Shown: in pieces, positions 18,305-31,141 of the stretch
How the letters are laid out: each line of letters opens with the position of its first letter
Numbering within the stretch: the first letter of the stretch is position 1
Source of the DNA: an uncultured Lachnospiraceae bacterium
GTDB taxonomy: Bacteria > Bacillota > Clostridia > Lachnospirales > Lachnospiraceae
Length of the DNA stretch: 51,594 bases
Assembly (NCBI GenBank): GCA_900319245.1
Contig: ONNQ01000028.1
Location: 1-51,594 of the forward strand
Direction of reading: 5' to 3'
Position numbers and translations under genes: made by a program
Notes under the pieces: generated by a model
Told to the model about the DNA's origin: nothing
What the model saw: only the letters and a program-made list of their open reading frames with translations
Databases searched by the model: none

Positions 18305-18370
18305 GTTCTTGTAGCGACAGACCCTCACCGGGCGCCATTGTTTTCGCAGCGCCAGACAGGAGTACGATCT

Positions 18371-19642
18371 ATGCTGTTCATACACAACTGTTACCTCATC
18401 GATCCCGCCTCTGACACGGAGGGCCGGCGCGATATTCTGATCGACCACGGCCGCTTTGTCAAAATACAGAAGAACCTGATGGCTCCCGCGGGCGTCCCTG
18501 TCATCGACGCCGGCGGCATGATCACCTGCCCCGGACTCATCGACACCCATTCCCACTTCCGCGATCCCGGGTTTACCTACAAGGAAGACCTCGCAACCGG
18601 TGCGGAGGCCGCCATAAAGGGCGGATATACCTCGATCATCCTCATGGCCAATACCAAGCCGCCTGTCGACTCCGCGGAAATCCTCAGCGATATCCTCGCT
18701 CGCGGGAGAACCCTTCCCGTCCACCTCTACAGCTGCGCCAATGTAACAAAGGGCATGGCCGGTCAGACGCTCTGCGACCTGGAGGCACTGGCGGATTGCG
18801 GCGCGGCCGGCTTTACCGACGACGGCCTCCCGATCATGGATCCCGAAGTCCTCACACAGGCCCTCATCAGAGTGAAGGCACTGGGACTTCCTGTCAGTCT
18901 CCACGAGGAGGACAAACGCCTGATCTCGGAGAATGGCGTCAACGGCGGCGGAAAGGCCGCGGAGGCGCTCGGTCTCACAGGATCGCCCCGCGAAGCAGAA
19001 TACACGCTGATCGCCAGAGACGTGGCGATCGCGGCTTCCCTGGATGCTCCTCTGTGCGTCCAGCACATCAGCACGGCGGAAGGCGTGGACTATGTGCGCA
19101 AAGCAAGAGCGGCGCACCCCTCTATCCACGCAGAAGCAACGCCGCACCACTTCTCTCTGACCGAGGACGCCATCCTCACCAGGGGGACTCTGGCCAAAGT
19201 GAATCCGCCCCTTCGCACCGAAAAAGACCGGCTTGCCATCATCCGGGGCCTTCAGGACGGCACGATCGACCTGATCGCGACCGACCACGCGCCTCACGCG
19301 ACCTACGAGAAAGAAAAGCCCTTCGTACAGGCGCCCAGCGGCATGATCGGACTTGAGACCGCCCTCTCCCTTGCGATCAAGCACCTCGTGCAGCCCGGTC
19401 ATCTCACAATGCTGCAGATGCTGGCCTGCCTGACCTGCAATCCGGCCGATTTCTATCACCTCGATGCCGGCCGCGTAGAGGTCGGCGCGCCTGCGGATCT
19501 CACCATCTTTGATCCCGACCAGGAGTGGACCGTTCCCACGGCGTTTGCCTCCAAATCCTGCAATTCGCCCTTCATTGGCGATCGCCTTCCCGGCGTTGTG
19601 CGCTTTACGATCAAGGACGGAGAGGTCGTATACAGAAGGTGA
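18371..19642 (+). CDS. pyrC: Dihydroorotase
   Basis: PyrC cyclises carbamoyl-aspartate to dihydroorotate in pyrimidine synthesis. The 423-residue protein is a class I amidohydrolase barrel: the metal-binding HxH is H60 and H62 in DTHSHFRDPG, later metal ligands lie in VQHISTAEG and ATPHHFSLTED, and the catalytic Asp in IATDHAPHA. The end resembles the family's DLTIFDP segment. ATG 18371 was chosen because GGAG lies nine bases upstream and MLFIHNCYLID fits the family; an in-frame ATG at 18338 adds an unrelated stretch. It is divergent from the plsC-pyrKD cluster, so the two pyr units share a 200-base control region. Confidence 0.96.
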   Translation: MLFIHNCYLIDPASDTEGRRDILIDHGRFVKIQKNLMAPAGVPVIDAGGMITCPGLIDTHSHFRDPGFTYKEDLATGAEAAIKGGYTSIILMANTKPPVDSAEILSDILARGRTLPVHLYSCANVTKGMAGQTLCDLEALADCGAAGFTDDGLPIMDPEVLTQALIRVKALGLPVSLHEEDKRLISENGVNGGGKAAEALGLTGSPREAEYTLIARDVAIAASLDAPLCVQHISTAEGVDYVRKARAAHPSIHAEATPHHFSLTEDAILTRGTLAKVNPPLRTEKDRLAIIRGLQDGTIDLIATDHAPHATYEKEKPFVQAPSGMIGLETALSLAIKHLVQPGHLTMLQMLACLTCNPADFYHLDAGRVEVGAPADLTIFDPDQEWTVPTAFASKSCNSPFIGDRLPGVVRFTIKDGEVVYRR

Positions 19643-19678
19643 GGACCTGCCTTTTCAACCGGGGAAACCCTCTGTGTG

Positions 19679-19824
19679 GAAGAATATACCCCGTCAGTAA
19701 CGACTTTTCACGGGTGGGGAAGTACCACAGATAAAAAGAGATGGCGCCAATGAGCCATCTCTTTTTCATTACAATATTTCTTCCCCGCCCGTGAAACCGG
19801 AGTGGATGACGGGGTATATTCTTC
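19679..19824 (+). repeat. Nested dyad repeat element, copy A
   Basis: Three concentric inverted repeats are present. The outer 18-base arms (19679-19696 and 19807-19824) pair perfectly, the middle 17-base arms (19706-19722 and 19780-19796) have one G-U, and the core is a terminator stem. Between outer and middle stems is an asymmetric internal loop, GTAACGACT on the 5' side and CCGGAGTGGA on the 3' side. The same loop sequences recur in copy B at 30366-30512 on the other strand, while stem bases differ. It lies 36 bases past pyrC, in sense orientation, and its distal arm overlaps the murF stop codon. I do not recognise the family. Confidence 0.85.
19733..19766. terminator. Bidirectional terminator between pyrC and murF
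   Basis: AAAAAGAGATGGC (19733-19745) and GCCATCTCTTTTT (19754-19766) form a perfect 13-base stem with T runs on both strands. It is the core of repeat copy A. Confidence 0.9.
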
Positions 19825-21274
19825 AGCTGCAGGATTCCCTTACGAAGCTGCACAGCTCCTCCAGCGCCATTCCGCGGGAGGCCTTGAACAGGAAGGCTGT
19901 GTCCGGCCCGATCAGTTCAGCAAGCACTTTTTTGGCTTCTTCCTTGTCCTCACAGGGACGGACGTCCTCCATATCCTGCTCCAACGCCGCCTCGGCCAGC
20001 CATCCCGCGCGGGTTCCGACCGTGACAAGTGTGTCGATGGCCAGTCCTGCCGCATATTCGCCGACTTCGCGGTGCAGCTTCTCCTCAAAGGCGCCCTGCT
20101 CCAGCATATCGCCGAGAACCGCCACTTTGCGGGCTGCTCTGGCGTTTGCCAGAATGCTGAGCGCCGCTTTCATGGACTGTGTGTTCGCGTTGTAGGAGTC
20201 ATTGAAAAGAATCACGCCATTTTCGCACTTCTCCACGTCCATGCGCATGTGCGTCGCCTGGAAATTGCTGATCCCCTCGGCGATCTCCTCCTCCGTGAGG
20301 CCAAAACACTGCCCCACCGCAGCCGCCGTCATGGCTGGATAGATCATGTGCCTGCCAAGGCTGGGGATCTCCAGTGCAAAGGTTCCCGCCGGCGTCTGCG
20401 CGTCGCAGCGCACCTCGTCGGGCAGCGTGTCGTCGATGTTCACAGCCCTGTAATCACAGGCTTCTGACTCGCCGGCCCAGTGGTATGTGAAGCCTCCGGC
20501 ATCGATTTCCGCGTACATCTTCGAAAAGTCATCGCTGCCTTCCGGATCGCCGACTCTGGAAGCGCCCGGACGGAGCGTCGCAAGCAGTGCGTCGTCGCCG
20601 TTTAGTACGGCTGTGCCGCCCTTCTTAAGGCCATGGAAGATCTCACACTTAGCGCGCAGGATATTCTCCTTGCTGCCCAGATTTCCGATGTGCGCGTCGC
20701 CGACGTTTGTGATCACCGCCACATCCGGCTGCGCGATGCGGACCAGATAGTCGATCTCGCCGAGGTGGTTCATGCCCATCTCCAGGACCGCGATCTCATC
20801 CTCTGCGTTCAAACGGAAAACCGTCATGGGAAGGCCCAGATGGTTGTTGAGATTGCCGGCGGTCTTGAGCGTGCGATAGCGGCTCGAGAGCACAGAAGCT
20901 ACCATATCCTTGGTCGTCGTCTTGCCGACACTGCCCGTGATGGCTACGACCGGAATCCCCAGGCGGCGCCTGTAATAGGCCGCCAGATCACCCATGGCTT
21001 TTGCGGTGTCCTCCACCAGCACGCAGAATTTTCCTTCCGGAATCGTCTCCGGTGCCTTGCTGACAAGGCACCCTTCCGCGCCGGCTTCCATGGCGCCGGG
21101 CACAAAGCGGTGCGCGTCGAGGCGCTCTCCCACGATCGCCACGAACAGGTCGCCTGCTGCGGCCGCTCTGCTGTCTGTCTGCACATTCGTGACAAACCGT
21201 GTTTCCGCGTCTATATTACCAAGAAGCTGTCCGTCGACCGCTTCGAGGATCTCTTTTACATAAATCTTTTCCAT
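19823..21274 (-). CDS. murF: UDP-MurNAc-tripeptide--D-Ala-D-Ala ligase
   Basis: MurF joins the D-Ala-D-Ala dipeptide, made by the neighbouring ddl product, to UDP-MurNAc-tripeptide, the last cytoplasmic step of the peptide stem. The 483-residue protein has an N-terminal UDP-binding domain, the P-loop ITGSVGKTTTKDMVA, the conserved NLNNHLGLP and EMGMNHLGEI blocks, and NDSYNANTQSMKAAL in the C-terminal domain. ATG 21274 is preferred because the family begins close to MEKIYVKEILEA and because AGGGTGAG precedes it; that binding site lies in the first unit of a 16-bp tandem repeat. Its stop codon overlaps the arm of repeat copy A. Confidence 0.97.
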   Translation of the reverse strand: MEKIYVKEILEAVDGQLLGNIDAETRFVTNVQTDSRAAAAGDLFVAIVGERLDAHRFVPGAMEAGAEGCLVSKAPETIPEGKFCVLVEDTAKAMGDLAAYYRRRLGIPVVAITGSVGKTTTKDMVASVLSSRYRTLKTAGNLNNHLGLPMTVFRLNAEDEIAVLEMGMNHLGEIDYLVRIAQPDVAVITNVGDAHIGNLGSKENILRAKCEIFHGLKKGGTAVLNGDDALLATLRPGASRVGDPEGSDDFSKMYAEIDAGGFTYHWAGESEACDYRAVNIDDTLPDEVRCDAQTPAGTFALEIPSLGRHMIYPAMTAAAVGQCFGLTEEEIAEGISNFQATHMRMDVEKCENGVILFNDSYNANTQSMKAALSILANARAARKVAVLGDMLEQGAFEEKLHREVGEYAAGLAIDTLVTVGTRAGWLAEAALEQDMEDVRPCEDKEEAKKVLAELIGPDTAFLFKASRGMALEELCSFVRESCS

Positions 21275-28785: not shown

Positions 28786-30258
28786 ATGGACAGACAAAAC
28801 CTGACACTGCTCACCGATCTGTATGAGCTGACAATGATGCAGGGATATTTTAAGAATAAGGAAGAGAACAATACTGTAATCTTCGATGCTTTCTTTAGAA
28901 ACAATCCCTTCGGCGGCGGCTACTCGATCATGTGCGGTACCGAACAGTTGGTCAAGTATATCAAGGAGCTGCACTTTAGTAAGCAGGACATCGACTATCT
29001 GCGCAGTCTCGGCATTTTTGATGAGGATTTCCTCGCCTATCTCGAAAGCTTCAAATTCACAGGTTCCATTTACGCGATTCCCGAGGGTTCGCTGATGTTC
29101 CCCAGAGAGCCCATGGTCAAGGTCATTGCCCCGATCATGGAGGCGCAGCTCGTGGAGACCGCGATCCTCAACATCATCAACCACCAGAGTCTGATCGCCA
29201 CAAAGGCAGCGCGCATTTGTTATGCAGCCCGCGGCGACGGAATCATGGAATTCGGCCTTCGCCGCGCGCAGGGTCCTGACGCCGGTACTTACGGCGCCCG
29301 CGCCGCAGTCATCGCAGGCTGCGTCGGCACTTCCAACGTCCTGTGCGGACAGCTCTTCGACGTCCCGGTCAAGGGCACGCATGCACACAGCTGGATCATG
29401 AGCTTCCCGGATGAGCTGACCGCCTTCAAGACCTACGGCGATCTGTATCCCAACGCCTGTATCCTTCTGGCCGACACTTACGACACACTTAAATCCGGTG
29501 TCCCGAACGCGATCAAGACTTTCCAGTATCTGCGCGACAAGGGCACGCTCGGCAAGGGCTACGGCATCCGCCTCGACAGCGGCGACCTTGCCTACATCTC
29601 CAAAAAGGCGCGCAAGATGCTCGATGAGGCCGGCTTCCCGGATGCGATCATCTCCGCCTCCAACGATCTGGACGAGCACCTGATCGACTCCCTGAAGAAC
29701 CAGGGCGCAGCCATCACCTCCTGGGGCGTCGGCACACACCTGATCACAGCCAAAGACAACCCGTCCTTCGGCGGCGTCTACAAGCTTGCGGCGATCCAGA
29801 GACCCGACGGCACCTTCGAGCCCAAGATCAAGCTCTCCGAGAACACAGAGAAAGTCACCAACCCCGGCGACAAGAAGATCTACCGCATCTACGAAAAGGC
29901 CAACCACAAGATCATCGCCGATCTGATCTGCCTCGAGGAAGAGATCTTCACCGATCAGCGGCCGCTGGTCCTCTTCGACCCCGCAGAGCCTTGGAAGAAG
30001 ACCAAGCTCGAAGCCGGCGAGTTCGAACTGCGCGAGCTCATGATCCCTCTCTTCAAGGACGGCGAATGTGTCTATGACTTCCCCAAGACCATGGACATCC
30101 GCAAGAAGTGCCTGGAAGAGCAGGACACCCTCTGGGAGGAATCCAGACGTCTCGTCAACCCTCACCAGATCTACGTCGACCTGTCCAGAAAGCTGTACGA
30201 CACCAAGCTCCGCCTGCTCGACGAAGTCGGCGAGAGAACACAGGGAATCCAGAGCTGA
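28786..30258 (+). CDS. pncB: Nicotinate phosphoribosyltransferase
   Basis: PncB makes nicotinate mononucleotide from nicotinate, PRPP and ATP in the NAD salvage pathway. The 490-residue protein has the N-terminal LLTDLYELTMMQGYF, the phospho-acceptor region FGLRRAQGPDAG, HAHSWIMSF with the conserved His, and the phosphoribosyl-binding RLDSGDLAYISKKAR plus GVGTHLITA. It is of the long bacterial form with an extra C-terminal domain after about residue 350. GGAGGAATCATT precedes the ATG. It is a single-gene unit with its own promoter and palindromic operator, divergent from ileS and convergent with the ECF gene. Confidence 0.96.
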   Translation: MDRQNLTLLTDLYELTMMQGYFKNKEENNTVIFDAFFRNNPFGGGYSIMCGTEQLVKYIKELHFSKQDIDYLRSLGIFDEDFLAYLESFKFTGSIYAIPEGSLMFPREPMVKVIAPIMEAQLVETAILNIINHQSLIATKAARICYAARGDGIMEFGLRRAQGPDAGTYGARAAVIAGCVGTSNVLCGQLFDVPVKGTHAHSWIMSFPDELTAFKTYGDLYPNACILLADTYDTLKSGVPNAIKTFQYLRDKGTLGKGYGIRLDSGDLAYISKKARKMLDEAGFPDAIISASNDLDEHLIDSLKNQGAAITSWGVGTHLITAKDNPSFGGVYKLAAIQRPDGTFEPKIKLSENTEKVTNPGDKKIYRIYEKANHKIIADLICLEEEIFTDQRPLVLFDPAEPWKKTKLEAGEFELRELMIPLFKDGECVYDFPKTMDIRKKCLEEQDTLWEESRRLVNPHQIYVDLSRKLYDTKLRLLDEVGERTQGIQS

Positions 30259-30283
30259 TCTGCCTGTGCATCGGGCTTTCAGA

Positions 30284-30366
30284 GAAACTGGACCATTCTG
30301 TGAACCGGGCTGTTATGGAAACCGGGCCATTGTGGAAGCTAGGCCGTCGGAAAACCGGACAACCAG
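30284..30366. repeat. Degenerate 15-18 bp tandem repeat, five units
   Basis: Five consecutive units each begin with GAA and contain a CNGG core: they start at 30284, 30302, 30318, 30335 and 30350. Typical units are GAACCGGGCTGTTATG and GAAACCGGGCCATTGTG. The array begins 26 bases after the pncB stop and runs directly into repeat copy B. No function is evident. Confidence 0.6.
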
Positions 30367-30512
30367 GGTACCCCCTGTCATCCACTCCGGTTTCTCGGCC
30401 GGGCAACATAGGATATCGATAATAAAAGGGATGACGCGCCGCGTCATCCCTTTTTCTTTGTGCAGTATGATCACCCCGCCCGAGAAAAGTCGTTCCTGAC
30501 AGGGGGTATCCC
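30366..30512 (-). repeat. Nested dyad repeat element, copy B
   Basis: Read on the minus strand this has the same plan as copy A at 19679-19824: outer arms TACCCCCTGTCA and TGACAGGGGGTA pair perfectly over 12 bases (30497-30508 with 30369-30380), a middle stem follows, and the core is a terminator. The loop sequences AACGACTTTTC (30484-30494) and GAAACCGGAGTGGATGAC (30377-30394) are identical to copy A, while the middle stem begins T-A instead of A-T and the outer stem is two base pairs longer. It lies in sense orientation downstream of the ECF gene. Confidence 0.85.
30424..30455. terminator. Bidirectional terminator between pncB and the ECF gene
   Basis: AAAAGGGATGACGC (30424-30437) and GCGTCATCCCTTTT (30441-30454) form a perfect 14-base stem with a T run on plus and a four-T run on minus. 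It is the core of repeat copy B and differs in sequence from the core of copy A. Confidence 0.9.
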
Positions 30513-30526
30513 GATTGACCCACTTT

Positions 30527-31141
30527 TCAGAAGTAGAAAAACAGTCCTGTCTTCTTGAGCGGCGCCCGCAGCGCCATGTAGAGTCCGGTTGCTACGAAGG
30601 CCGATACGACCGAGTTGATAACGGTGACGCCAATGTTGATCGCAAAGGACACTTCCGCGGCAGGCTTGCCCAAGATCAGAATCTTGTAGAAGTAGCGAAT
30701 CGTCGGGTCGAAGATTGCATTAAACGCAAGTCCCGCGATGACCGCTGCCAGTGTCCAGCGGAAGACCTTGCCCAGGTCTCTTTCTGTTGTGATGTGCCCC
30801 ATCTTGTGCGCGACCACGCCGACAAGAATTCCCATCAAGAACTTGATCACGAATGTGATCGGCGCCTGCACGATATATACTGGATCCATCAGGTCTGCGA
30901 TTGTAAGACCAAGGGCGCCGCCGGCTCCGCCGTACGCGCTTCCCAGGATCAAGGCGCCCAGTACGCAGAAGGCATTGCCCAGATGCACTGTGACTTTATC
31001 TCCTGCGATAGTGGGGATCGGGATGGACAAGAATGTAAATACAATATACGTAAGTGCCGCGAAAATTCCCGAAAATACAAGTCTTCTCAAGCTCTCTCTC
31101 CTTGCACTGTCAATTGCTGCGGTTGAATTCAGACTATTCAT
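30527..31141 (-). CDS. ECF transporter S component (substrate unknown)
   Basis: This 204-residue membrane protein has about six hydrophobic segments and the layout of ECF-type vitamin transporter S components (ECF-ribofla_trS-like). Near residue 20 is RRLVFSGIFAALTYIVFTFLSI, then VTVHLGNAFCVLGALILGSAYGGAGGALG with the small-residue helix that contacts the ECF-T subunit, and LADLMDP-like and FVIKFLMGILVG segments that line the substrate site. It would pair with ECF A/A'/T subunits encoded elsewhere. The vitamin cannot be told from sequence; pyridoxine or hydroxymethylpyrimidine-type compounds are family possibilities. GGAGG lies seven bases before the ATG. No recognisable riboswitch is upstream. 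Confidence 0.82.
   Translation of the reverse strand: MNSLNSTAAIDSARRESLRRLVFSGIFAALTYIVFTFLSIPIPTIAGDKVTVHLGNAFCVLGALILGSAYGGAGGALGLTIADLMDPVYIVQAPITFVIKFLMGILVGVVAHKMGHITTERDLGKVFRWTLAAVIAGLAFNAIFDPTIRYFYKILILGKPAAEVSFAINIGVTVINSVVSAFVATGLYMALRAPLKKTGLFFYF

Follow-up and report, generated by a model that had tools for sequence, protein, structure and literature searches.

The attC sites of integrons are folded DNA whose sequence varies while the structure is conserved, and their consensus features are the RYYYAAC and GTTRRRY boxes together with an integron integrase. REP sequences usually occur in more than 100 copies per genome, and a RAYT gene lies between two inverted copies of the unit (PMC2817692); REP and BIME sequences are also treated in PMC3116915 and PMC8266576. 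CGTC-tagged REPs have a stem of 8-9 bp, a loop of 4-5 nt and an unpaired CGTC end (PMC3733652). The bcr repeats of the Bacillus cereus group are taxon-restricted and intergenic, and some, of about 150 bp, have a common predicted structure (PMC3446304, PMC2267715). Template switching is a known process by which paired changes arise in one step with no wobble intermediate (PMC8794818; also treated in PMC7202029). These descriptions follow the accessible portions of the papers cited. The literature searched, likewise accessible in part and with most subscription journals outside its coverage, contained no account of an element like the following one in Lachnospiraceae.

We analyzed a stretch of 51,594 nt from an uncultured Lachnospiraceae bacterium (the whole of it is called the window here; contig ONNQ01000028.1, assembly GCA_900319245.1). 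In one branch of a Lachnospiraceae genus, a large repeated palindrome appears to have taken the place of the usual transcription stop downstream of some genes; two of its copies (A and B) lie in the window.

Anatomy of the element and its place between genes

Both copies are made of arms nested around a terminator-like hairpin, with a conserved L motif in one half and a conserved R motif in the other. The features are as follows.

18338..19642, + strand, pyrC-like amidohydrolase gene, convergent neighbor on the L side of copy A
19679..19824, + strand, copy A, whole element with three concentric stems (inverted-repeat and folding analysis)
19679..19696, + strand, left arm of the copy A outer stem (inverted repeat)
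19699..19709, + strand, conserved L motif of copy A, AACGACTTTTC (motif match)
19706..19722, + strand, left arm of the copy A middle stem (inverted repeat)
19733..19766, no strand assigned, core hairpin of copy A with an A-run 5' and a T-run 3', terminator-like on both strands (by reading)
19780..19796, + strand, right arm of the copy A middle stem (inverted repeat)
19793..19810, + strand, conserved R motif of copy A, GAAACCGGAGTGGATGAC (motif match)
19807..19824, + strand, right arm of the copy A outer stem, its last 2 bases being part of the murF stop codon
19823..21301, - strand, murF, host gene on the R side of copy A
28786..30258, + strand, pncB-like nicotinate phosphoribosyltransferase gene, host gene on the R side of copy B, 99 nt off
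30357..30520, - strand, copy B, whole element (inverted-repeat, pattern and covariance-model match)
30377..30394, - strand, conserved R motif of copy B (motif match)
30424..30454, no strand assigned, core terminator-like hairpin of copy B (by reading)
30484..30494, - strand, conserved L motif of copy B (motif match)
30527..31141, - strand, ribU-like ECF transporter gene, convergent neighbor on the L side of copy B

The outer arms of copy A (18 nt) and its core arms (13 nt; 19733-19745 and 19754-19766) are 100% matched, and the middle arms (17 nt) are 94% matched. The folding z-scores against shuffles were -13.0 and -9.8 for copy A as + and - strand RNA, -10.8 for copy A as DNA and -7.2 for copy B as RNA; none of the shuffles folded as well in any of the four tests. 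The 18-mer GAAACCGGAGTGGATGAC, searched with up to 3 mismatches, gave exactly two matches in the window vs. 0.06 expected, and a third exact copy lies elsewhere in the source genome (C35). The source genome holds three strong copies, A and B among them, with B the more diverged of the two by covariance model (117 bits vs. 162 for A). The nested-dyad element reported in the first-pass annotation is therefore real, and its overlap with the murF stop was confirmed, as the outer arm of copy A ends inside the murF TGA. No known Rfam family accounts for it, as that annotation had supposed: Rfam 15 gave no match in the window at the gathering score, and only far-sub-gathering matches at A and B.

Other parts of the earlier description need revision. 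The core terminators of the two copies had been called unrelated, but AAAAAGAGATGGC of A and AAAAAGGGATGAC of B align at 11 of 13 positions, and a core helix is common to the aligned long copies. The internal loops quoted for A and B are conserved as described but partly paired (TTTC/GAAA, ACT/AGT, GTC/GAC), and the truly unpaired parts are shorter than those loops and unequal between the two sides. Copy A does lie downstream of pyrC in the sense direction, but this does not hold as a rule for the family; the constant neighbor is the gene on the opposite (R) side, which is murF for A and pncB for B.

A simple terminator scan of 19300-20200 gave no site, probably missing the core of copy A because the T-run sits within the stem. 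Outward promoters in both halves were also considered, as GTGAAA-17/18-TATATT occurs on either side of A. This reading was dropped because the last -10 position varies (column 180, an R-arm letter; G 13, A 8, C 7, T 6 and 4 unpaired in 38 rows). Between pncB and copy B (window 30258-30357) there is a series of short alike units, GAAACTGGACCATTCTGT / GAACCGGGCTGTTAT / GAAACCGGGCCATTGT and so on, which is absent at the equivalent position in genome G081.

Distribution, inheritance and modular growth

A pattern search of 61 genomes gave 17 distinct copies for a first alignment. The consensus runs from the outer stem through GTCn, 2 nt, AACGACTTTTC, the middle stem and GTACC... to the terminator-like hairpin, and from there through the middle stem and GAAACCGGAGTGnAnGAC to the outer stem; there are also short copies without the core hairpin. 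By covariance model (E 0.01 or better), the family is present in 9 of 62 genomes of one Lachnospiraceae genus, with 2 to 18 both-strand matches or ∼1-9 copies in each positive genome; the filters were strict, and weak copies may go undetected. The larger alignment (A2) has 38 rows, of which 37 were counted, since one repeats another copy as read on the opposite strand. Of 42 listed copies, five that are weak, partial or short (L098, L112 short, L113, L116 and L119) are not part of it. The nine element-bearing genomes form a single clade in a gdhA tree (support 98/98; 29 rows from 30 fragments, G083 with under 600 nt excluded). A search of 392 genomes of the order gave matches in three, including the source genome, and those in the other two were weak (35-48 bits), so that no convincing member was found outside the genus. 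In the genome-contig collection, 20 stretches contain the exact 18-mer, and one of these (RUG14676, L042) was confirmed by reading; the whole-element pattern gave no further distinct element among the 20. There was no match in plasmids or phages, nor in viral contigs for an exact pattern, and an origin from phage, plasmid or virus was dropped.

In all 30 main copies, the R side is turned toward a host-gene stop codon, at a distance from overlap up to about 100 nt; a fixed orientation to genes was among the checks proposed in the first-pass annotation. The hosts are gdhA (8), argG (5), a SSF transporter gene (4), htpG (4), murF (4), pncB (3), an ABC transporter gene (1) and a POR-family gene (1), as identified from one representative each plus clustering, or by flank identity where the R-side ORF was antisense or unlisted. 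That leaves 7 of the 37 aligned copies, which are partners in inverted pairs and whose R side points toward the upstream region of the next gene. The SSF-transporter copies (L090, L099, L112, L116) lie upstream of the S10-Clostridia ribosomal leader RF03136, and the element may there separate the transporter gene from the ribosomal operon. An Rfam scan of 18 fetched loci, including 7 of 8 inverted-pair places, gave tRNAs and the S10 leader as the only known RNAs near or between paired copies.

The element has been inherited mostly vertically at fixed loci. At gdhA, where 24 of the 30 loci retrieved were read, it is present in 8 of 9 clade genomes and G081 has a different terminator-like hairpin; it is absent from all 12 outgroups in which both flanks were found (3 more showed one flank only). 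The outgroups have different sequence in its place, often a simple terminator-like hairpin by reading. The pncB-ribU gap holds other sequence in G081, G024 and G035; G063 and G067 have other sequence after pncB, with ribU located differently, and G079 retains a short remnant of the arm. In a small copy tree with few strong branches (12 of 34 starred), copies cluster by locus (11 changes vs. 23.4 shuffled) and not by genome (25 vs. 23.6). The exceptions to clustering by locus indicate that copying or conversion between copies has occurred: the murF and pncB copies of G003 and G013 cluster together, with common flanks in G003; the murF copies of G000 and G081 cluster with those of htpG; the two copies that G077 has at the htpG locus cluster together; and so do the gdhA and pncB copies of G000, the latter on a long branch.

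The element is modular. Upstream there are additional L motifs, mostly 55-59 nt apart (one L pair at the gdhA locus of G000 is 90 nt apart), and downstream there are additional R motifs with a spacing of 52-61 nt, so that half-units recur mostly every 52-61 nt and build further concentric storeys. A second storey is present in G003 at gdhA and htpG, with predicted folds of -163 and -150 kcal/mol (z -15 and -16). The gdhA copy of G079 pairs its inner L arm with the outer R unit in the fold, as though one L unit were missing. By reading, L and the reverse complement of R have stem sequence in common and differ in the loop, and in the hybrid copy G067:C48 an R unit in reverse complement makes up the left half. 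Five genomes have inverted pairs with L sides facing, at eight places in all, the two copies of a pair lying about 180-1,120 nt from each other; these places belong to three loci (argG, SSF transporter and htpG).

A second repeat family seems to be associated with the elements. A tandem array of 72 nt x 6.3 lies between the paired copies at htpG in G013:C15 (L109:4745-5198), and one of 63 nt x 6.7 lies beyond the L side at pncB in G013:C3 (L107:4240-4660); the units of both look internally hairpin-forming. Units of the GAGCCCTTAG type recur beside several copies, by reading.

Covariation and the maintenance of the arms

The stems covary, as the first-pass annotation had stated for two copies. 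Both sides were changed in 30 of 51 pairs among 17 copies vs. 11.8 in shuffles, and 154 cells were double-changed in 38 rows vs. 38.9. Local hairpins within each half (CCCnGTC/GACnGGG) were rejected, with 4 double-changed cells vs. 2.1, and 37 of 500 shuffles did as well. Selection for an RNA fold on one strand is expected to allow G-U pairs but not A-C. The 37 copies and 51 pairs give 1,806 cells, of which 1,684 are Watson-Crick, 34 G-U, 28 A-C and 60 other. The control, an S10 leader from the same genus (30 of 44 leader-bearing genomes), gave 425 Watson-Crick, 128 G-U, 3 A-C and 5 other in 561 cells; its structure came from RNAalifold, which favors G-U over A-C columns, and the element under the same treatment gave 37 G-U vs. 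23 A-C. The two differ in G-U/A-C with a Fisher value of 1.9e-13, on rows that are related to one another. The double changes of the element were 75 transversions vs. 75 transitions, and those of the S10 leader 4 vs. 27. A tRNA control (ARAGORN parse) gave 11 G-U, 2 A-C and 25 other of 140 pairs and carries little weight, as some ends were misparsed. The earlier claim that covariation marks a structured RNA is not supported by these counts. The near-equal G-U and A-C, like the equal transversions and transitions, mean that the pairing overall behaves as though each change in one arm were copied into the opposite arm, and the 60 other mismatches indicate that such correction is incomplete. Equal G-U and A-C would also be expected if both strands were used as RNA.

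Columns 23-29 and 31-33 (AACGACT, TTT) in one loop, and columns 154-164 together with 166 (AAACCGGAGTG, A) in the other, show little or no variation among 37 copies; conservation is lowest at column 157 (32/37). Mean identity is 0.86 and 0.89 in the two ten-column loop regions and 0.76-0.83 in the stems. Among gdhA orthologs the values are 0.865 for the L loop, 0.939 for the R loop and 0.83-0.86 for the stems; since this gap is modest, the case for separate selection rests mainly on the comparison between loci. On that comparison, separate selection probably keeps the loops.

A structured 3'-UTR RNA is one way to read these data: the whole nested hairpin would be transcribed, and its loops would bind a protein setting mRNA stability or termination. 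We regard this as rather unlikely. Very strong covariation, conserved loops, the 3'-end position and stable RNA folds all fit it, and the use of both strands would reconcile it with the equal mispairs, but the overall counts, in which transversions equal transitions, speak against it. The eight copies classed as convergent lean toward an RNA-like pattern (G-U 14 vs. A-C 3), a class assigned by judgement in which seven are murF or pncB copies and not all are independent; the remaining 29 have 20 vs. 25, though mostly one strand there has an obvious transcript. Covariation with G-U tolerance on the transcribed strand was thus not found for the family overall. The terminator-like hairpin, moreover, sits between the halves that need to pair, and an efficiently terminated transcript would contain one half of the long stems only.

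The DNA-like pair statistics would also suit a non-autonomous mobile element, whose folded single strand would be recognized by a putative recombinase or transposase (REP/REPIN- or attC-like), with pairing kept by selection on the hairpin and not by copying. Occupation of at least eight gene loci, the inverted pairs and the between-locus copying seen in the murF and pncB clusters of G003 and G013 point the same way; however, inheritance mostly by locus, the low number per genome, no visible insertion duplication, none of 20 RAYT-like neighborhoods with L and R motifs together and the empty searches of plasmids, phages and viral contigs (exact pattern) make it, in our judgement, improbable. A repeat that is only an elaborated terminator, its loops conserved by recent common descent, is consistent with a single origin in one clade by the gdhA tree and with the simple hairpins often read at the same place in outgroups. 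It is very improbable, as the stems diverge between loci while L columns 23-33 and R columns 154-164 remain nearly invariant in 37 copies.

We consider it somewhat probable that the element is a clade-specific, BIME/REP-like extragenic palindromic mosaic that stands in place of ordinary terminators behind a few genes, with arms matched at the DNA level. The core hairpin with its A- and T-runs would end transcription, probably in both directions. A mutation in one long arm would be copied into the other, most likely by template switching or else by gene conversion at the palindrome, and copying of this kind would also explain the duplicated storeys, the arm-swap hybrid and the local loss of a unit. 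Template switching might yield loop inversions or flipped copies, and none was seen. The loop motifs would most simply be a recognition site, in folded or duplex form, for a putative protein. A more specific proposal we offer as a tentative one: a new kind of element, a self-nesting DNA hairpin that would grow by concentric storeys, keep its arms complementary by DNA-level copying and present two unequal conserved loops to a dedicated putative factor, and that would act as the 3'-end terminator and boundary of chosen genes in one clade.

Covariation is widely held to be strong evidence of a functional RNA, and here 150 double-changed cells in 37 copies come with almost no overall wobble bias. 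Counts of G-U against A-C and of transitions against transversions therefore offer a simple, testable filter for palindromes maintained at the DNA level. One clade has an elaborate common element where its relatives have other, simpler sequence, and the orthologous loci of nine related genomes allow the steps of palindrome growth and loss to be traced.

Comparison with known systems

Among 20 RAYT-like loci in nine genomes, some ending early at contig ends and all called by judgement from length and a weak Y1 score, none had L and R motifs together; two had a lone L (1 mismatch) and five a lone R (2-3 mismatches), and a RAYT-linked REP was dropped. Y1 transposase genes are present in 44 of 62 genomes, also in genomes without the element. 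G069, of the same genus, has 38 Y1 transposase matches in a 4.3-Mb genome, the next highest of the 62 being 9. RAYT-like ORFs of about 205-337 codons (L160-L179) are common in the genus, and some adjoining frames look repetitive in translation, perhaps as their own REPs.

The element resembles attC sites in its variable sequence and conserved folded structure; the attC end boxes were not recognized in it by eye. It departs from the CGTC-tagged REPs, as far as the available text describes them, in its nested stems of 13-18 bp and in the paired GTC of the L half. A MITE or REP sequence had been named as what would refute a structured RNA. MITEs are marked by fixed terminal inverted repeats and a target-site duplication. 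Here the outer arms differ by locus, no clear target-site duplication was seen by reading, and a gdhA or pncB site that has the element differs from one that lacks it over the whole intergenic stretch (by reading); the classical MITE/REP form is not borne out, although a kinship to REPs in the wider sense is retained below. The hairpins attributed to template switching have the same one-step paired changes, but those described in the accessible part of PMC8794818 are in rRNA stems, unlike the present arms of 13-18 bp, nested three deep between genes.

The bcr repeats are alike in being taxon-restricted intergenic repeats with a predicted structure, a likeness taken from their descriptions; the available parts of PMC3446304 and PMC2267715 mention no concentric storeys or central terminator. 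Unlike REP, BIME and REPIN sequences, the element has half-units spaced about 52-61 nt apart and unequal conserved loops nested round a terminator-like core, and it occurs in about 1-9 copies per genome vs. the usual >100 given in the portion consulted of PMC2817692. What it has in common with them is a set of imperfect palindromes outside genes, in units that are clustered and inverted, with a mosaic make-up and a restriction to one taxon. By analogy, then, we place the REP/BIME and bcr repeats as its nearest known systems.
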